Shown here: in pieces, positions 22,016 through 33,349 of the stretch
Position numbering within the stretch: the first letter of the stretch is position 1
Layout of the letters: each line of letters begins with the position of its first letter
Origin: Desulfovibrio ferrophilus
GTDB taxonomy: Bacteria; Desulfobacterota; Desulfovibrionia; Desulfovibrionales; Desulfovibrionaceae
Assembly: GCF_003966735.1 (NCBI RefSeq)
Contig: NZ_AP017378.1
Coordinates: forward strand, 1,287,501-1,351,500
Reading direction: 5' to 3'
DNA length: 64,000 nt
The notes under the pieces: model-generated
What the model was told of the DNA's origin: nothing
Seen by the model: the letters and a program-made list of their open reading frames with translations, nothing else
The model's database searches: none
Program-made: the position numbers and the translations under genes

Positions 22016-22168
22016 GGGCAATCCTCATCTGGTTATTCGATTCACGCAAGCCATATACCTGCCCCAGCTTCCGAGCGCAAATTTTTCATCAAACCTATAG
22101 TAACGATTCCCAATAACTGATATTGAATACTCATGATGCTCGTAAAGTTGATCAACGGAATTCGGCAG

Positions 22169-22996
22169 ATGCAGTCCCACTATGAAACCTTTCAACCTGA
22201 CCAGGCCAAGGCTTATCTTGAGTCGCATACGGAAGGCGAATTCACACTTCTCGATGTCCGCGAGGACTGGGAGTACGAGGAGTTCCGTATTCCAGGCGCC
22301 ACCCATATCCCCTTGTCCGAACTTGGGGACCGGGTCAAAGAGATTGCCAAGGACAAACCCGTATTAGCCTATTGCCGCGCGGGTGGACGCAGTGCCGCAG
22401 CCGCAAGTCTGCTCAAAGGGCAGGACTACCCAGTTGTCTACAACATCATGGGTGGTGTGGACGCCTGGCAGGGCGGCTCGGCAGTTGGTCCAGCCACGGC
22501 AGGTCTTGCTGCCATTCCGGCGGATGCCTCCATCGAGGACATCATCGCCGTGGCCTGCCGCATGGAAGTCAACCTGGGCAAATTCTATGAGGCACAGGCA
22601 GAACAAGCCGAGGATTCCGAAACCGCCGCCACGCTGAAAAAACTGGCGGGATTCGAGGACAAGCACAAGAACTGGCTCTTGATCATCTATCGCCAACTGA
22701 CTGGTCAGGAACTGGACGGCACCTTCCTCACGGACAGCCTTGCCGATGGCGATCAGCCCTTGGAAGGCGGACTGACTGCGGAAGAATTCATGGAACTCAA
22801 TCAACCCTGGCTGGACGAACCCGTCAGCGTGGTTGAAACCGGCATGATGTTCGAAACTCAAGCCCTGGACCTGTACATGCGCTACGCAAACAAGGTTGAG
22901 GACAAGGAATCCAGGGATCTGCTGCAGAAACTCGCACAGGAAGAAAAGGCACACCTGAAGGCCCTTGGCACCCTGCTGAAGCGTATCGGAGGCTAA
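22169..22996 (+). CDS. Rhodanese-ferritin-like (rubrerythrin-type) fusion protein
   Basis: 275 aa. A rhodanese domain (residues 1-100) has LLDVREDWEYEEFRIPGATHIPL and the active-site loop AYCRAGGRSAAAA with its catalytic Cys. A ferritin-like four-helix domain (about 125-275) follows, with likely di-iron ligands in NLGKFYEAQ, GFEDKHKNW, FETQALDLYMRY and EEKAHLKAL. The fusion suggests coupling sulfane sulfur or peroxide chemistry to a di-iron site in the cytoplasm; this is inference. An in-frame ATG at 22133 lacks a Shine-Dalgarno site; ATG 22169 has a modest CGGAA. It is divergent from the rhodanese-MauE pair. Confidence 0.82.
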   Translation: MQSHYETFQPDQAKAYLESHTEGEFTLLDVREDWEYEEFRIPGATHIPLSELGDRVKEIAKDKPVLAYCRAGGRSAAAASLLKGQDYPVVYNIMGGVDAWQGGSAVGPATAGLAAIPADASIEDIIAVACRMEVNLGKFYEAQAEQAEDSETAATLKKLAGFEDKHKNWLLIIYRQLTGQELDGTFLTDSLADGDQPLEGGLTAEEFMELNQPWLDEPVSVVETGMMFETQALDLYMRYANKVEDKESRDLLQKLAQEEKAHLKALGTLLKRIGG

Positions 22997-23860: not shown

Positions 23861-26398
23861 TCAGTGAAGGGCTCGTTGCACAGCAGTCAGGCATTCAGCA
23901 CACATGGTTTCGGGCTTGGCATCCAACTCGCGCAACGACAAGCTTCTGGAGCATACACACTCGGCGTTGTTGCATGGGGGGGCTCCCAAAGCCAAGGACA
24001 GACTCCCCAGAGTCTGCTTGACCAACCGGGACAACAGGCGTTGGCGGTCCTGCCCTTCTCGCCCCTCAAACCGCGAGGTCATGCGGTGATAGGACACCAT
24101 GGCGGAACCAGAGTTGGAATATCCGAGCAGGTATTCCACTCCCGGATCGAACAAATCACGTTCGGTCACGCCCAACACAACTCGCTGGGGCTTGTCTTGC
24201 CCCAAGGAGAACCGGGCGGCAAGACTTTTGAGCAATGGCATAACCCGATACTGCTCCTGGCCCCGCAACTTTGAAGTCTCCACCAGAAAATCAAATCGCT
24301 CCTGCCGCTTCTCTCGCCCGGCCGCAGCGTAGTAGGCCTTCATGAATTCCAAGCGCTCTTGGTGGGTGCTGGGCCGTCCTGTCTTCCCCATGGATGCAAC
24401 CAGCCTCCGGCTCAATTCAGGCTTGAGTCGGGAAGCCACTTCCCGAAAAGCTGCAAAAACATACCCTTGGGCCTGAGTACGCTGGGGGCTATCCATTGGT
24501 TGTCGGTGACCATCAACGGCGACTTGAACACCCAGCAAGGATTCAATACGAACGGCTACTTCTCGCAGCAATCGACGCTGAGGGGTCCCCACCGGCACAA
24601 AAACAATTCGGGCATCACCAAGACCTGACTCACCAGCTTCGACAGGAGGCATTCCCGGGCCCTTGTCATTCAAGAACAACATGGCCTGATCCACAAGCTT
24701 CGAATCTTCTGCATGCCTCAGCACTGACCGGGCATGGGCAAAGGCCTGATCATCGCGCCCCAGAGATTTCAGCACACGAGCCAGCAACATCTCCGTAGAG
24801 GGCATACCAGGGGCCAGGGCCACAGCTTCTTCCAGACGTCTGATGGCAAGATCGTCATGGCCTTGGGTAAGGTCATCAGCGGCAAGCATGGACAACAACT
24901 GTGCCCGCTGCCCGCTTGGCAGTTTCCCTGCACCTAATACCTGTTCCAATTCTTCGCGTGGAGCCTCGTACCAACTGACTTTGCGCACTCGAAACATGAG
25001 ATCATCCACGGGCAAGGCAAGCAGTCCTTCCTCGCCTGCGCCCAAACGGACATGAGTCGCGTCCAGCACAATCTGTCCCAGAGTCGGGTCCATCCCCTGC
25101 CAGCATCCGTCCAGAGCGACCTCAACCCAGGCATGTCCACTGAATCCGGGGGGTTGCCGAGAGTCATACAACAGGCCGTACACTTCGCGCACGGCCAGCC
25201 CCAGGCTTCGCCCCAACGCCGTATACAGCAGTGCATGTTCCGTGCAGTCACCGCGCTTGTGCTTCAACACGGTCAGCACGTCTGTATATTGGGGGGTTGG
25301 ATCGTCAATCACATAATTCTGAACGAACTCAACCAGCAGTTCGGCCTGCCTGCGTGCATCCTGTTCTCCCTGCACGGCTCGCCGAGCCAGCGACTTCAGG
25401 ATGTCATTGCCCGAGGCATAGCGACGTTCAGCCGTTGTGGCCTGTTTGATCTCAACGCTAGATGCCCTCGATGGCTCCACATATAACGTCCCCAACTGGA
25501 GCAGTACCGAACCGTCCTCCAGCGTTTGTAAACGTTGACCGGGCCCGGCTTTTAATTTTCTAGCATCGGCACCAAAGGCCTCCATCTCCAGCCCGTCCAA
25601 CCACTGTGCACCGCCCAGCTCACGATCCACAGGGCATTGAAACAGATTGTAGAGATCAACGGCCCCACTCCCTGCCTGCGCCTGCTCCTTGGACATTCGG
25701 CGCATGCTCAGCCCAGCACCGAGTTCCGCACGCAACAAATGCCCCTGAATACCGGTCCGGATGGCATAGACACGTTCTCTGCCATCACGCAGCGAAATAT
25801 CGAATTCCCCGGTTTCAGAAACTATGGACTGAATAGTTGCCCTATGAACCTGCATTTCTGCATCTTCAAGGGACAGCGCCCGATAGTCCATGACCTGGCC
25901 CGATTGTGCCCCTCGGCGAACCCAAAGCTCAGGTGTCAACAAATCCGCGTACACAAAATTCCACGGACGAACCACTGCCTGCTTCATCTCACCGCCAGAA
26001 TTGGCCCGCACACTCCACTTGTCTTCTCGTGCCAAAATCTCCACACGAATTTTTCCGTCTGATATCAACCGGGCGCTGATCAGCCGGTGCGGGGCCTGGA
26101 GGTCAAACAGGAACTCCGATCGCACCCGGGAACGCACACGCTTGCCCATGGACACATAGTTAAGAAACACATCCTCGGCGAACAAATGCCCGGGATGCTC
26201 TGCATCCAGTGAGAAGCCACGCTCTGCACGCATATGCCCGGCTTTGATCTCGCCCAGATAGACCCCGAACCATTCTACCCGACGCTCGGACAGCTCCACA
26301 GGCGATGGCATCAGGCGTATCAACTCGGCCCGAGCCAGGCTGGCACAGCACACCAACAGGAGTATCAAGATGGCAAGAATATTGGATAATTTTTTCAT
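23861..26398 (-). CDS. Secreted transglutaminase-TPR protein with degenerate archaemetzincin domain
   Basis: 845 aa. A signal peptide (MKKLSNILAILILLLVCCASLARA region) is followed by a beta-rich part (30-330). The transglutaminase-like core keeps its triad: Cys385 in RGDCTEHALL, His422 in GHAWVEV, Asp437 in MDPTLG. A short TPR-like segment (about 500-580) comes next. Residues 594-845 follow the archaemetzincin plan (IVFVPVG, VLGVTERDLFDPGVEYLLG, AMVSYHRM, LDAKPETMCAEC). The zinc motif HExxHxxGxxHC is replaced by GSLSLALGAPPC, so the metal ligands are gone while five Cys remain. GAGG lies 8 bases before ATG 26398. Its target is unknown. Confidence 0.8.
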   Translation of the reverse strand: MKKLSNILAILILLLVCCASLARAELIRLMPSPVELSERRVEWFGVYLGEIKAGHMRAERGFSLDAEHPGHLFAEDVFLNYVSMGKRVRSRVRSEFLFDLQAPHRLISARLISDGKIRVEILAREDKWSVRANSGGEMKQAVVRPWNFVYADLLTPELWVRRGAQSGQVMDYRALSLEDAEMQVHRATIQSIVSETGEFDISLRDGRERVYAIRTGIQGHLLRAELGAGLSMRRMSKEQAQAGSGAVDLYNLFQCPVDRELGGAQWLDGLEMEAFGADARKLKAGPGQRLQTLEDGSVLLQLGTLYVEPSRASSVEIKQATTAERRYASGNDILKSLARRAVQGEQDARRQAELLVEFVQNYVIDDPTPQYTDVLTVLKHKRGDCTEHALLYTALGRSLGLAVREVYGLLYDSRQPPGFSGHAWVEVALDGCWQGMDPTLGQIVLDATHVRLGAGEEGLLALPVDDLMFRVRKVSWYEAPREELEQVLGAGKLPSGQRAQLLSMLAADDLTQGHDDLAIRRLEEAVALAPGMPSTEMLLARVLKSLGRDDQAFAHARSVLRHAEDSKLVDQAMLFLNDKGPGMPPVEAGESGLGDARIVFVPVGTPQRRLLREVAVRIESLLGVQVAVDGHRQPMDSPQRTQAQGYVFAAFREVASRLKPELSRRLVASMGKTGRPSTHQERLEFMKAYYAAAGREKRQERFDFLVETSKLRGQEQYRVMPLLKSLAARFSLGQDKPQRVVLGVTERDLFDPGVEYLLGYSNSGSAMVSYHRMTSRFEGREGQDRQRLLSRLVKQTLGSLSLALGAPPCNNAECVCSRSLSLRELDAKPETMCAECLTAVQRALH

Positions 26399-28345: not shown

Positions 28346-28717
28346 CAACACTGACAACCTGCCATCCGTACGCAACCTGCCGGAAGGACGATCTGACCCA
28401 AGGGTCTGCGTAACGGACCACACCTCGCCCAATATCTTCTCCCGATCTTGACGCCCCCTCCTGCTGCATACCTATTTAAAAAAAATATACTAAAAGTAAT
28501 ATCGCACTTGACAATACAAAGCGTGACCGTTAGCCATTAGCACGTTTTATAAAAACGTAACACACAAACGGAATCGGCCTGCGGCAAGGACTCAATCTGA
28601 ACCTCAGGGTGGAAAACTCCGGTCAAGTGATCCTTACCCCATCGCGACCGGCTTGCATCTGCCCAATTGTGCTCTTTCCTCCCTGCCGCAGTCGATTCCA
28701 GCCATCGAGGAAGCAAT
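28346..28717 (+). promoter_or_regulatory. 372-base intergenic region: promoter, 26-bp operator-like element and long leader
   Basis: The AT-rich part (28468-28503) precedes TTGACA at 28508-28513. A weak -10 (TAGCCA, 17-base spacing) touches the element TAGCAC-GTTTTAT-N6-GTAACAC at 28538-28563, which matches the hydA element in layout and at every consensus position. A leader of about 155 bases follows before the TM1266-family start. It can form an outer stem CTGCGGCA (28579-28586) / TGCCGCAG (28684-28691) and an inner stem CCGGTC (28619-28624) / GACCGG (28646-28651). No gene was found in this region and no known riboswitch consensus was recognised. Confidence 0.55.
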
Positions 28718-28972
28718 ATGAGCACGCACATCGGAGTCATCGGCATTATCATTCAGGACAGGGCCAAAGCCGCACCGAAGGTCAACAGAATCCTCACAGA
28801 TTTTGGGAGCCTGATCATTGCCAGAACAGGCCTGCCCTACAAGGAACGCGGCCTGAGTGTGATCTCGCTGATCGTAGAAGCCAGCACGGACCAGATCGGA
28901 GCGCTCACCGGAAAACTCGGTATGCTCGAAGCCGTGAAGGTCAAGTCCCTGGTGGTCAAGCCATGCGTCTAA
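28718..28972 (+). CDS. TM1266-family iron-only hydrogenase system putative regulator
   Basis: 84 aa. It matches the small ACT/NikR-C-like family annotated as the iron-only hydrogenase system putative regulator: IGVIGIIIQDRAKAAPKVNRIL, IIARTGLPYKERGLSVISLIVE, and a C-terminal GKLGMLEAVKVKSLVV. The fold resembles a ligand-sensing dimer without a DNA-binding domain. In other genomes it lies near hydEFG maturases, which are not in this window. ATG 28718 has GAGG 7 bases upstream, and its stop overlaps the TonB receptor start by 10 bases, coupling it to uptake. Confidence 0.85.
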   Translation: MSTHIGVIGIIIQDRAKAAPKVNRILTDFGSLIIARTGLPYKERGLSVISLIVEASTDQIGALTGKLGMLEAVKVKSLVVKPCV

Positions 28973-30990
28973 ACCATATTCCCCCTACCTCCACCGTGCT
29001 ATTTGTTCTCGCCCTCTTTGGGTTGATTCAGGCTACTCCTTGCTTCGCACAGGATAAATCCGAACCATTGGCTCTGGACCCCGTTGTAGTGACTGCCAGA
29101 GGATTTGAAAGCCCCCTTTCCACCATCCCCGGCTCCATCGGTGTTGTCGACGAGAATGAAATCGAGCTTGCAACAAAAGCAAGTATTGCCGACGCCGCAT
29201 CTCGCATCCCCGGCGTCGCCCGCACAGGAGACTCTCCTTGGGGACAGGCCTTGAATATCCGGGGACTTAGTGGATCATCCATCATTTTTCTGATCGACGG
29301 TAAACGAGTCAATACTGCGCAGGATATCAATGCTCAGATGGGATTCGTCATGCCTCTGGACATTGAGCGCATCGAAGTCCTCAAGGGACCTGTGAGTGCA
29401 CTGTACGGAACTGGCTCCATCGGTGGCGTTGTCAACGTCATCACCAAGAAAGGCACCTTCACCAGCGACAATCAGGTGCACGGTGAACTGTCACAATCCT
29501 TTTCAACCAACACGGAAGGCACTGACTCTTATGGTCGGGCGATCTTCAGCCAGGAGAACCTGTGGTTGCAGTTGTCAGGCGCCTTCAGAAACCATGACGA
29601 CTACTCAGGCGGCGACAGTGCATTGATCCCCAACAGCCGCTACGAAGACAAACAGTTCCGGCTCGCATCAGGAATCAAGTGGACGAACAACCTGAGCAGT
29701 GAAGTTCAAGTCCTGGTCAACGAGGCCAACGAAATCGGCTTGCCAGGCGGAACATCGACCATGCCTGCCACGGCAATGGTGACATATCCCCGAACGAGCA
29801 ATGTCATGGTTTCCTTGGATAATACCTGGGAAGTCGAATCGGAGTTCCTGCAGCGCATCAAGGCGGATGCCTACTACATGAAAAATGACCGCAGGGTCCG
29901 CCTTGAGAATATTCCCAATCCTGCAGTGAACATGATTCGACCCGGGGCCGATCACGAGACCTGGGGTGGCAAGCTCCAGGGCCTGTTCTGGCTGGGTGAC
30001 CATACACTCGTGGCAGGAATGGACGCCTGGAATTGGCATATGGTGTCATCCCGCACCAAATTTCTGATCTCGGGGGCCACCATCACAGATAGCCCCACCC
30101 CCAACACAACCATGACCTCAAGCGGCGTCTTTGCTGAAGATGACTGGATGCTGACTGAAAATTTGAGCCTGAATCTGGGAGCCAGGCTGGACAGCGTCAA
30201 CATTGCCAATCAGGAAAGTGCCCTCGCTGAGGAAGGAAGCTCAACCGACTTGGGCTGGAACATCCACGCTGGCCTGGCCTGGCGTTTTGCCGAAGGCTGG
30301 AGCCAGAACATGATCGTCGCAAGCAGCTACCGTGTTGCAGATATCATGGAGCGTTTCAAAAACATCAACCTGGGGAACGGCACCGTGTTGTCAGGCAATC
30401 CTGACCTTGACCCCGAGCGCTCCATTCATCTGGAATACGGCCTTTGTTACACCAACGAGAAATTCACGGCCTCCGGCAGCGTATTCATGGACACCATCAA
30501 AAACTTCATCACCGAAGAACGGGTTTCCAGCACCAGCATCACCATGAAAAATGTGGGGGATGCACGTCTGTATGGAGCAGAAGGTCAAGCGCGCTGGCAA
30601 TTCATCCCGCACTGGGCACTCTACGGCAACGTGGCATGGCTGTATGGCAGAGACGAGAACTCGGACACTCCGCTTCCGGCTGTTCCCCCTTTGAATGGTG
30701 TCACTGGCCTACGTTACGAAAACGACAAGGGATTCTGGACCCAGGGGGAATGTCAGTGGGCAGCAGGCAAGCACAATGTACCCCAGGGAACGGACCCAAC
30801 ACCGGGGTGGGCAACCGCCAATCTATCAGCAGGCATCACTGTCCCTCATAAAGGCCTGGCCCATAGTCTCAGTATAAACCTGAACAACCTGTTCGACCGA
30901 CGCTTTGTCAACTACCTGGCCAATGCCAGAGGCATCGAACTGCTGGAGCGTGGATTCAATGCGGAACTCATTTACAGCCTGAAATTCTAA
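28963..30990 (+). CDS. TonB-dependent outer-membrane receptor
   Basis: 675 aa. The signal peptide ends near CFAQD (about residue 30), then a TonB-box-like PVVVTARG. A plug domain (SIADAASRIPGVARTG, LNIRGLSGSSIIFLIDGKR, IERIEVLKGPVSALYGTGSIGGVVNVITKK) is followed by a 22-strand barrel ending in the terminal Phe typical of outer-membrane proteins. It imports an unknown ligand with TonB energy. It overlaps the TM1266-family gene by 10 bases and is followed 3 bases later by an ABC importer, so the genes form one uptake operon. Confidence 0.93.
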   Translation: MRLNHIPPTSTVLFVLALFGLIQATPCFAQDKSEPLALDPVVVTARGFESPLSTIPGSIGVVDENEIELATKASIADAASRIPGVARTGDSPWGQALNIRGLSGSSIIFLIDGKRVNTAQDINAQMGFVMPLDIERIEVLKGPVSALYGTGSIGGVVNVITKKGTFTSDNQVHGELSQSFSTNTEGTDSYGRAIFSQENLWLQLSGAFRNHDDYSGGDSALIPNSRYEDKQFRLASGIKWTNNLSSEVQVLVNEANEIGLPGGTSTMPATAMVTYPRTSNVMVSLDNTWEVESEFLQRIKADAYYMKNDRRVRLENIPNPAVNMIRPGADHETWGGKLQGLFWLGDHTLVAGMDAWNWHMVSSRTKFLISGATITDSPTPNTTMTSSGVFAEDDWMLTENLSLNLGARLDSVNIANQESALAEEGSSTDLGWNIHAGLAWRFAEGWSQNMIVASSYRVADIMERFKNINLGNGTVLSGNPDLDPERSIHLEYGLCYTNEKFTASGSVFMDTIKNFITEERVSSTSITMKNVGDARLYGAEGQARWQFIPHWALYGNVAWLYGRDENSDTPLPAVPPLNGVTGLRYENDKGFWTQGECQWAAGKHNVPQGTDPTPGWATANLSAGITVPHKGLAHSLSINLNNLFDRRFVNYLANARGIELLERGFNAELIYSLKF

Positions 30991-30993
30991 GGC

Positions 30994-31995
30994 ATGAGCA
31001 CCATGAAAATTCGATTTTTCTCTCTGGTCCTGGCCTTTCTATGCGGGTTGACTCTGGCCGTGTTCATGAGTCGTCCGGGGGCCGAAGCTGAATCCCAACC
31101 GCCCCCCAAAGGCCTGACCTTTTATACCACCGGCGGCGCGACAACCCCTCAGATGCCCTTTTGGAAAGCTGTTGCGGACAGCGCCATACCTGAACTCGAC
31201 AATCTAGATGTCCATTATTGGAAGAACCTCGACGACCTGCGAGGGGTCGTACTTGCAGGTCGTGGTGATCTCTGGTTGGGCCACATTGAAGGTTTTGCCC
31301 AGGCGGCCATGCGAGGGGCTCCGGTACGCCTGCTGGCTGTCACGGGCTGGCGCAAGTTCAGCATTCTGACCAATGCCCCGAACATCCAAACCCTCGAGGA
31401 TCTCCTGCAATGTCCCGCCGGAACCGAGCTAGCCGTGGCGCCACCCCAATCTCCGGCGATCCCGATCATGCGGACGATGGAAAGCTTTGGACTTCCCCGA
31501 TTTGTCTATGTCCCACATGAACCTCGGCAATTGATGCTGGAGTCTTTGCAGAAGCCCTCCATTCTGATTCTGACACCTGAACCGATGACAACAGTCCTGC
31601 TGGGCAAGATTCCAGGACTGCATGTTGTAGCCCAAGTCGAAGATTTGTTTGGGCGCTTCACCGGGCGCGTGCCCTTGCTGCCCATCGCAGGAATCGCGAT
31701 CAACGAACAGCTGGCCCGTCAACGCCCGGAATTGATTCACGCTCTTCAACAAGCGCTTGTAAATGCAGGGCAAGAACTGGCCGAAGCTCCGACAAAAGGC
31801 CTTGAGTCACTGCCCGAGGACTTTGAACAATTCATGACCCGAGACATCGTTCGGGATTCACTCAAACGGGACATCATCCTTGTCCGTCCGGCCCGGGAAT
31901 GTCGCGAGATCATCACCCAATACCTGAGCATGGTCTTGCCCGATGATAATCAATCAGCCATCCACAACCTGCCCGACAGCTTTTTTGGGCAATGA
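30994..31995 (+). CDS. NitT/TauT-type ABC transporter substrate-binding protein
   Basis: 333 aa with a signal/anchor peptide (KIRFFSLVLAFLCGLTLAVF) and a periplasmic binding fold of the NMT1/SsuA-like type. Visible landmarks are LTFYTTGGATTPQMPFW near the mature N-terminus, GRGDLWLGHIEGFAQAAMRGAPVRLLAVTGW, and FVYVPHEPRQLMLESL. The type usually binds small organic anions or pyrimidine precursors, and the ligand here cannot be read from sequence. The start could be ATG 31003, which is better spaced from AAGG. Its end overlaps the permease start (ATGA). Confidence 0.82.
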   Translation: MSTMKIRFFSLVLAFLCGLTLAVFMSRPGAEAESQPPPKGLTFYTTGGATTPQMPFWKAVADSAIPELDNLDVHYWKNLDDLRGVVLAGRGDLWLGHIEGFAQAAMRGAPVRLLAVTGWRKFSILTNAPNIQTLEDLLQCPAGTELAVAPPQSPAIPIMRTMESFGLPRFVYVPHEPRQLMLESLQKPSILILTPEPMTTVLLGKIPGLHVVAQVEDLFGRFTGRVPLLPIAGIAINEQLARQRPELIHALQQALVNAGQELAEAPTKGLESLPEDFEQFMTRDIVRDSLKRDIILVRPARECREIITQYLSMVLPDDNQSAIHNLPDSFFGQ

Positions 31996-32753
31996 TCAAA
32001 GTCCTGACACCATATCTATTCTCCATGAGTCTGATCTTTGCCGTGTGGACAGCGGCAAGCCTATGGACCGGACCTATCCTGATCCCAACGCCATGGAGAG
32101 TCTTTCCCGCATTGGGTGGCCTGCTTCAGGATGTTGAATTCTGGGGAACCATAGGACTGACTCTGGCGCGAGGAGCATGCGGACTCGTAATGGCCCTGAC
32201 GGCTGCCCTCATCCTGGGCATCCCGGCCGGGCTATCGCCGGGGTTCATCCGATTGCTCGGCCCACTTGTGGCTGCACTGCAATCCTGTCCACCTGTTCTA
32301 TGGATCAGTCTGGTTCTTGTCTGGGTGGGAACAGGCTCTGCAGTCCCTGTAGTTGCCGTGTTCGCGTCCATCTTTCCCATCCTGTTCATCAATATCTCCC
32401 AGGGCTGCCTATCCATCGATAGGCGCTTACTGACCATGGCTAGCTTGTACAAAGTATCTGCTGCCCGAAAACTCACCCATATTATCCTGCCCGGCGTCAC
32501 GCCTGCGCTTCTGGCGGGCTTATCTTATGCATTGTCGGCCACCTGGAAGGTCGCTGCCGTGGCCGAATATCTGGGGTCCGGAGAGGGTATAGGAGCACGT
32601 ATCTACTGGGCTTATCGCATGCTGGACATTCCAGACCTGTTTGCCTGGGCGCTTGTGCTGGCTGGCATTGGCGTGGGATTGGAAATGAGCCTTGTCGCAC
32701 GGTTACGAAACCTCGCTGCGCGATTCAGGACAACCACGAGGGAGAGCGCATGA
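31992..32753 (+). CDS. ABC transporter permease, NitT/TauT type
   Basis: 253 aa with about six transmembrane helices and the cytoplasmic coupling loop ASLYKVSAARKLTHIILPGVTPALLAGL, the EAA-type motif of SsuC/TauC permeases. Overlaps of 4 bases with both the binding-protein gene and the ATPase gene mean translational coupling. It forms the inner-membrane channel for the substrate delivered by the TonB receptor and binding protein. Confidence 0.9.
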   Translation: MIKVLTPYLFSMSLIFAVWTAASLWTGPILIPTPWRVFPALGGLLQDVEFWGTIGLTLARGACGLVMALTAALILGIPAGLSPGFIRLLGPLVAALQSCPPVLWISLVLVWVGTGSAVPVVAVFASIFPILFINISQGCLSIDRRLLTMASLYKVSAARKLTHIILPGVTPALLAGLSYALSATWKVAAVAEYLGSGEGIGARIYWAYRMLDIPDLFAWALVLAGIGVGLEMSLVARLRNLAARFRTTTRESA

Positions 32754-33349
32754 TCCGCCTGCATAGTGTTGGCAAACACTACGACAACGTTGAGGTTTTA
32801 CCCCACACCACTCTTCATATCCAAACAGGGAAAGGGCTCTGTCTGACCGGCCCATCAGGATGTGGCAAGACTACGCTGCTTGAAATTGCTGCGGGCCTAA
32901 ATCCTCCTGACTGTGGACGAATTGAACTCGGTTCGCAGAACATCGGCTGTGTATTCCAGGATGACGCCATCATCCCCTGGCTTGATGCCGAGGCAAATAT
33001 CACTTTTGTCCTGCACGACAAAAAAAGGCTCCGGCAAAGAATCGCCCGCTACTGGCTGCGCCGCTTCGACCTGCCCCCCCAGATTCTACCCCCGGCAATG
33101 AGCGGTGGCATGCGCCGCCGACTGAATCTGGCCCGTGCCTTTGCCGTTTGCCCGGATATCCTGTTTCTGGATGAGCCCTTCGCGTTTCTGGACAGCCAAT
33201 GGCAACGCAAACTGCTCCTTCTGATTGAGGAATCCTTGCACAAGGGGATGACCATACTTATGGCCAGTCACCAGCTCGGCGCCCTGCGTCAAACACTCCC
33301 AAGCCTCGATTATCAGGAATTATCAGCAACATCCGCACAAAACGAATGA
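32750..33349 (+). CDS. ABC transporter ATP-binding protein
   Basis: 199 aa with Walker A GPSGCGKT (about residue 35), Q-loop VFQDDAIIPW, signature MSGGMRRRLNLARA, Walker B ILFLDEPFAFLD and the H-loop ASHQ. It is at the short end for this family (usually 230-260 aa) and lacks the extra C-terminal part. The signature reads MSGGMRRR instead of LSGGQRQR, as in some NitT/TauT ATPases. It drives the permease encoded just upstream. Confidence 0.9.
   Translation: MIRLHSVGKHYDNVEVLPHTTLHIQTGKGLCLTGPSGCGKTTLLEIAAGLNPPDCGRIELGSQNIGCVFQDDAIIPWLDAEANITFVLHDKKRLRQRIARYWLRRFDLPPQILPPAMSGGMRRRLNLARAFAVCPDILFLDEPFAFLDSQWQRKLLLLIEESLHKGMTILMASHQLGALRQTLPSLDYQELSATSAQNE

Follow-up and report, generated by a model that had tools for sequence, protein, structure and literature searches.

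A transglutaminase-like gene of Desulfovibrio ferrophilus with a predicted signal peptide and a C-terminal archaemetzincin domain that lacks its catalytic zinc ligands

The archaemetzincins (peptidase family M54; Pfam PF07998, NCBIfam NF033823) include AmzA of Methanopyrus (2x7m) and the proteins of Archaeoglobus (3zvs, 4axq) and Methanocorpusculum (3lmc), and a passage of PMC3427221 gives their consensus as HEXXHXXGXXHCX4CXMX17CXXC. The initial annotation of the present locus regarded such proteins as single-domain zinc peptidases, a description that is too simple, since a non-proteolytic M54 protein is already known, namely CarG of Myxococcus xanthus (PMC3427221, PMC8156234). According to sections of PMC8156234, PMC4374960 and PMC3427221, CarG carries an M54-type motif and binds CarD, protease activity being absent; it has about 170 residues (PMC4374960), keeps its His ligands (HQxxHxxExxHC), binds two zinc ions and functions in transcription together with CarD (PMC8156234). 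A term search of the main text of a review on inactive metallopeptidases (PMC11266112) returned no occurrence of M54, archaemetzincin or CarG. Another protein of relevance is EipB, which is presented in a portion of PMC10787603 as a periplasmic barrel protein linked to envelope integrity.

The gene considered here was found in a window of 64,000 nucleotides, the whole stretch of D. ferrophilus DNA that was analysed, as a minus-strand frame of 845 amino acids that reads without internal stop. The coordinates initially given for this frame and for its motif at residues 798-809 are exact. However, the initial two-domain picture overlooked TPR-like helices and an EipB-like barrel, and four modules follow the signal peptide. 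In the features below, the end of the signal peptide, the limits of the TPR-like part and the start of the M54 domain are our own readings of sequence, models and alignments.

23861-26398, minus strand: whole gene, 845 amino acids plus stop (ATG at 26398, stop at 23861-23863)
26327-26398, minus strand: predicted Sec signal peptide, residues 1-24, ending in SLARA and followed by E25 (sequence inspected by eye)
25679-26311, minus strand: N-terminal beta-barrel or spiral domain, about residues 30-240, with an EipB-like (DUF1849, 6ntr) fold (AlphaFold model and VIA-align)
25085-25393, minus strand: transglutaminase-like (TGc) domain, Pfam span residues 336-438
25244-25246, 25133-25135 and 25088-25090, minus strand: TGc triad C385, H422 and D437, respectively (alignment)
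24659-24910, minus strand: TPR-like helical repeats, about residues 497-580 (sub-cut-off Pfam TPR matches, helices in the model, Foldseek)
23864-24619, minus strand: pseudo-archaemetzincin (M54) domain, residues 594-845 (Pfam, NCBIfam, PDB search, model, alignment, tree)
23972-24007, minus strand: lost catalytic zinc motif, residues 798-809, GSLSLALGAPPC in place of HExxHxxGxxHC (alignment)
23891-23974, minus strand: Cys4 cluster still present (C809, C814, C833, C836), with Cys816 at the position of the Met-turn Met (alignment)
24089-24091, minus strand: Tyr770, found in 5/5 pseudo-M54 rows versus 2/37 intact rows

When the frame is cut into 13 blocks of 65 codons, codon position 2 is the G+C minimum in 12. 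Only block 586-650 departs from this, with position 3 lowest (GC1 0.80, GC2 0.46, GC3 0.38); since the frame in this block still aligns with a separate protein from another genome, G383, no frameshift is seen there. A local frameshift or assembly error, which had been named at the outset as a possible flaw, is not borne out, the 845 codons being unbroken and block 586-650 still aligned with the G383 protein.

The C-terminal domain, residues 594-845, is archaemetzincin-like, as initially claimed. PF07998 matches the whole protein with an E-value of 6.1e-8 and 33.3 bits against a cut-off of 24.4 (36.2 bits in the whole-genome search), placing the domain in the M54 homology family, and searches of the PDB with the single sequence returned 3lmc (5e-9), 2x7m (3e-8), 3zvs (1.1e-7) and 4axq (1.2e-7). 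The Pfam match spans residues 741-842 only (profile positions 97-194), and support for the N-terminal part of the domain, 594-740, comes from the alignment, the model and the 2x7m match, which starts at residue 667. NF033823 matches with an E-value of 1.8e-20 and 73.6 bits, under its cut-off of 145, so that the domain does not score as an active archaemetzincin. The two halves of the protein were modelled separately, and the AlphaFold model of residues 496-845 (mean pLDDT 86.6, pTM 0.83) superposes in VIA-align on 3lmc with a Z of 22.4 (rmsd 2.2, 172 aligned), on 3zvs with 22.0, on 4axq with 21.6 and on 2x7m with 20.8, the next-best metzincins reaching 13.2 at most; the fold is thus that of a metzincin and, more closely, of M54. 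Because the alignment fed to this model included 37 intact archaemetzincins, which pull it towards the M54 fold, independent evidence comes from the single-sequence searches, and the M54 relationship of the domain is sound. The segment preceding it can be called TPR-like only, since all Pfam TPR matches are sub-threshold (the best by E-value, TPR_19, with 18.9 bits against 25), the model contains helices and Foldseek matches the ideal TPR 1na3 at 2.3e-3. Although the occurrence of the fusion in one genome only would be in keeping with an artefact, chance similarity, frameshift and assembly error were rejected as hardly credible in view of the Pfam, NCBIfam and PDB E-values, the gapless alignment of the motif, the repetition of the TPR-M54 order in the separate G383 gene (25% identical) and a colinear remnant in a congener.

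It was verified that the His ligands and the Glu are gone while the Cys skeleton is kept, as initially claimed. In an alignment (A3) with 37 intact archaemetzincins, the window row is gapless across the motif and GSLSLALGAPPC stands opposite HELGHxxGLxHC; all three His positions and the Glu position are substituted, the Met-turn Met is replaced by Cys816, and the motif of an active archaemetzincin is therefore absent. The structural cysteines 809, 814, 833 and 836 are all present and provide the complete set of Cys4 residues, with a spacing of X16 versus X17 in the archaemetzincin consensus. The 37 intact rows were preselected from 57 listed because they carry HExxH in a frame no longer than 240 amino acids, so that the motif count of 37/37 is true by construction. 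A less biased count covers the 97 distinct frames that match either profile at E <=1e-3 among the loci fetched up to then, a set that is no census: 89 carry HE..H..x..H and 8 do not, the latter being three cuts of the window gene, four other pseudo-M54 proteins and one TPR-only protein (L175).

These four proteins, encoded in the genomes G383, G502, G382 and G780, are stand-alone, exported-looking combinations of TPR-like and dead M54 parts. The G383 protein, found by a search with the whole window protein, has 418 amino acids, a signal-peptide-like start and the TPR-M54 order of the window protein; its best Pfam TPR match (7e-6) lies slightly under the cut-off and PF07998 matches at 8.8e-11. 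The G502 and G382 members were found by profile search, and later the G780 member likewise. Neither G502 nor G382 yields a Pfam match at E <=1, and their NF033823 matches (6.1e-10 and 1.6e-6, respectively) are sub-cut-off. The motif position reads SSTFFLFDIPRC in G383, PASLKKLNIQRS in G502, PASLKSLKIPRS in G382 and PASLKTLGIPRS in G780. By inspection, the N-termini of all five pseudo-M54 proteins are signal-peptide-like, and their genomes, the window genome included, fall into four family codes (f17 for G383, f39 for G502 and G780, f16 for G382). The initial expectation that orthologues would keep the loss stands as far as the module is concerned, homologues of which were found in these four genomes; for the fusion it does not, as the fusion has no orthologue among the genomes searched and the gene was apparently deleted from the congener.

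In a tree of 42 sequences over 159 alignment columns, from which the motif columns were omitted, the five dead domains fall on one side of a branch with support 100/94, opposite the 37 chosen intact archaemetzincins, the root not being fixed and long-branch attraction being possible. This common placement suggests that the zinc site of the five domains was likely lost in one old event. The terminal branch of the window row is long (1.32), and the top pairwise identity of this row (31%) is with an intact archaemetzincin, L061. Additionally, Q716, R791, C814 and D826 are conserved in 5/5 pseudo and 37/37 intact rows and K794 in 5/5 and 34/37, suggesting that the fold is under selection. G383 and G382 also encode an intact archaemetzincin; in G502 and G780, the pseudo-M54 gene is the only M54 gene found. 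Inspected by eye, the neighbours of the four stand-alone genes include no common gene. The three most altered pseudo-M54 proteins (L109:8735-10276, L110:7791-9326, L128:1030-2664) have unassigned N-terminal parts of about 130-150 residues that look alike, for which no Pfam match was obtained in the two checked. Other M54 proteins with N-terminal extensions, located at L113:6862-7905, L116:3581-4477, L114:2491-3510, L117:1675-2583 and L173:953-1981, present motifs such as HETAHMFSISH, in which Ser replaces the conserved Gly.

The cysteines of the five domains bear on two other explanations of the module. All four structural Cys are left in G383, where the fifth is absent, and one of the four in G502, G382 and G780. 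The retention of the four structural Cys in the window protein, together with a fifth at the Met-turn position, could indicate a redox or metal sensor, in which C809, C814, C816, C833 and C836 would bind zinc or form periplasmic disulfides and thereby switch the TGc domain; in fact, a passage of PMC3427221 discusses Cys4 oxidation as a speculative regulatory route and mentions other metzincins with two disulfides in that place. However, with the fifth Cys missing from G383 and a single Cys in three other members, this could not be a general role of the family, and such a sensor is considered improbable. Alternatively, the module could serve as a structural cap or spacer, which would stabilise the protein and bind no ligand itself. 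The absence of three of the four structural Cys from 3/5 pseudo domains, which implies loose constraint on details, and the apparent loss of the gene in the congener would suit a cap, but the module occurs without TGc in four genomes, and is thus more than a cap for the window enzyme, and Y770 and several fold residues are common to all five; the cap is accordingly held to be unlikely, although a less distant prospect than the sensor. A tentative and on balance doubtful proposal is that the five proteins make up a hitherto undescribed family of archaemetzincins that are exported and metal-free, each placed behind a TPR-like segment, which may now serve as a recognition module for envelope proteins or peptides, and which in the window organism would have been joined to a barrel-TGc protein to give a one-chain enzyme with a dead-protease targeting head.

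The enzyme half belongs to the TGc superfamily, PF01841 matching with an E-value of 2.7e-18 and 66.6 bits against a cut-off of 23. The triad C385, H422 and D437, which the initial annotation took to be functional, is intact and invariant in 29/29 aligned rows, window included (alignment A4 holds 28 of the 35 other frames listed, L039, L046, L049, L055, L066, L067 and L010 being left out), and the domain is presumably active. A profile of these 29 rows retrieves from the PDB 3isr, a putative cysteine protease (4.1e-14), and TgpA (2.1e-7). In the model of the N-terminal half (mean pLDDT 84.8), the TGc part gives a Z of 16.6 with 3isr over residues 265-477, 10.8 with TgpA (6g49) and 10.6 with LapG (4fgq). 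Eukaryotic transglutaminases, with Z 10.7-13.8, fall between 3isr and TgpA/LapG, and the fold therefore does not separate a hydrolase from a crosslinker. Many bacterial TGc enzymes are hydrolases; between cutting and crosslinking by this domain, its sequence cannot tell. The barrel part, residues 30-237, superposes in VIA-align on EipB (6ntr) with a Z of 15.6 (rmsd 3.3, 192 aligned, 8% identity), an unrelated-looking chain of the bovine sperm axoneme (9fqr_Xh) scoring 16.3, and Pfam DUF1849 has no match in the window protein at E up to 1.

The existence of TGc relatives without M54, among them those of G032 and G024, indicates that the C-terminal half is an added module. Such relatives directly precede ABC ATPase and permease genes in 3/14 compared loci, which the window gene does not, and these neighbours hint that the TGc family acts at the envelope. 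The three loci are L059:4505-8521, L060:4120-8102 and L063:4026-7973, with PF16949 in L059 and L060 and an overlap of 4 to 29 bases between TGc and ATPase frames; possibly, they represent a barrel-TGc plus ABC exporter unit of the window phylum. A LapG-like protease and adhesin system reported in Desulfovibrio vulgaris in 2026 (PMC13090378) may be relevant to TGc proteases of sulfate reducers.

The count of transglutaminase plus M54 architectures that had been suggested initially was run within the window phylum, with at most 2 to 4 candidates scored per genome, and there, among the matches listed, the pair was found in the window genome only. Of the 288 family genomes, 11 show at least one match at E <=1e-6, and both halves are matched in the window genome alone (at most 3 candidates scored per genome). 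PF07998 is matched in 9/297 genomes of the order, the other eight having frames of 89 to 383 amino acids, the longest of which (G049, 9.4e-4) is sub-cut-off. The pseudo-M54 profile is matched in 7 of 348 class genomes, by the window gene and by frames of 182-204 amino acids in six genomes, in which HExxH is present. In the phylum (395 genomes, with up to 2 candidates scored in each), the matches listed include no further row with a match to both halves; with the C-terminal profile, the longest frames after that of the window, among the matches listed and with at most 4 candidates per genome, have 558 (G649), 535 (G382) and 520 (G502) amino acids, and a Pfam TGc match is absent from all three. 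In the window genome, no second M54 match appears at E up to 10, and two more weak TGc matches lie barely above the cut-off. Beyond the window phylum, a related-locus scan of genome contigs with the window protein gave 16 candidate stretches and no relatives, and a contig scan with alignment A1 as query gave one locus, taken as the contig of G383 itself, whose class comprises 3 genomes, 1 with a match. PHROGs gave no match at E up to 0.01. In agreement with the initial statement that no protein with this domain pair was known, no described combination of an archaemetzincin or "peptidase M54" with a transglutaminase was found in open-licence PMC papers.

The next gene downstream, 22 nt away on the same strand, encodes a TlyA-like RNA methyltransferase with FtsJ and S4 domains. 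In G001, the single congener compared, TlyA (87.6% identity) adjoins the iron hydrogenase (92.3%) and the gene is absent, but a 51-nt stretch of 82% identity, colinear and in the same orientation, matches window positions 24187-24237 (BLAST E 4.8e-8 within the two stretches; local score of 58, where 200 dinucleotide-shuffled sequences reached 37 at most). This remnant lies at L186:9320-9370, between TlyA and the hydrogenase, and is likely a deletion scar. On this basis, a recent insertion into the window genome was rejected, and it is most likely that the gene was present before the window species and G001 split and was then deleted in G001, an apparent deletion that implies a dispensable gene. 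The same deletion, the end branch of 1.32 and the odd codon-position composition at 586-650 could also be the marks of a decaying relic, a formerly separate archaemetzincin domain under loss. However, the 845-codon frame is intact with position 2 lowest in G+C in 12/13 blocks, the loss is common to five proteins on one branch side and in four family codes, and the relatives are unbroken TPR proteins with signal-peptide-like starts, so that a relic is given a low probability, similar to that of the redox sensor. Elsewhere in the window, by eye, 22133-22996 is one ORF in which a rubrerythrin/ferritin-like helical domain comes after a rhodanese-like domain, and 28609-33349 holds a TonB-receptor-like gene followed by the solute-binding protein, permease and ATPase of a putative ABC uptake system, the receptor, binding protein and ATPase of which have matches in G001 in the same order.

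Computation directly shows in what order the domains stand, the fold, the lost motif, a TGc triad that is intact and the placement of the five dead domains on a common branch. The preferred interpretation, with a rough probability of 0.45, is that the gene encodes a periplasmic TGc cysteine enzyme in which a metal-free archaemetzincin acts as docking module. The protein would be exported to the periplasm, and its TGc domain would most likely be a peptidase, an amidase or an acyl-transferase whose target is a protein or peptide of the envelope. With none of the catalytic zinc ligands left and the catalytic Glu lost, the M54 mechanism should not operate; the dead M54 cleft and the TPR-like helices may instead bind a segment of a partner or substrate and keep it close to the TGc site, by analogy with CarG, which binds CarD rather than cutting. 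Since no other M54 protein was found in the window genome, the dead domain is unlikely to be a regulator of an active paralogue there. Several observations count against docking: the TlyA-like neighbour gives no operon support, the gene was apparently deleted in the sole congener G001, a fusion seen once leaves selection on the fusion unsupported, and the end branch of 1.32, the best identity to the intact L061 (31%), the unfixed root and the bias of the model alignment weigh in the same direction. The retention of the fold with the metal dropped, the apparent move outside the cytoplasm and the new partners suggest that the cleft offers a useful surface for binding, and a TGc enzyme with a dead-protease head and its relatives without one form a testable pair.

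In comparison with known systems, the window domain has in common with the archaemetzincins the fold, the Cys4 cluster, the GVT strand and the Q716, R791 and D826 positions, and differs from them in lacking HExxH, the third His and the Met-turn Met, in its exported-looking context and in being joined to TPR-like helices and TGc. Both CarG and the window domain belong to M54, CarG being the non-proteolytic precedent, but the zinc-ligand motif HQxxHxxExxHC of CarG is missing from the window domain, which scores 42.7 bits against a cut-off of 250 with NF033824 (Myxo_non_zincin), presumably the CarG family. With 3isr, TgpA and LapG-type proteins, which we take to carry the Cys-His-Asp triad positions as per the Pfam family, the window protein shares the TGc fold; unlike them, it has a barrel before TGc and TPR and M54 parts after it. 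With EipB it shares the barrel fold at low identity, and the description of EipB in the relevant portion of PMC10787603 contains no join to TGc. As far as seen in open-licence PMC papers, three features are new: the full loss of the ligands for catalysis, a TPR-linked branch that looks exported and the fusion with TGc.
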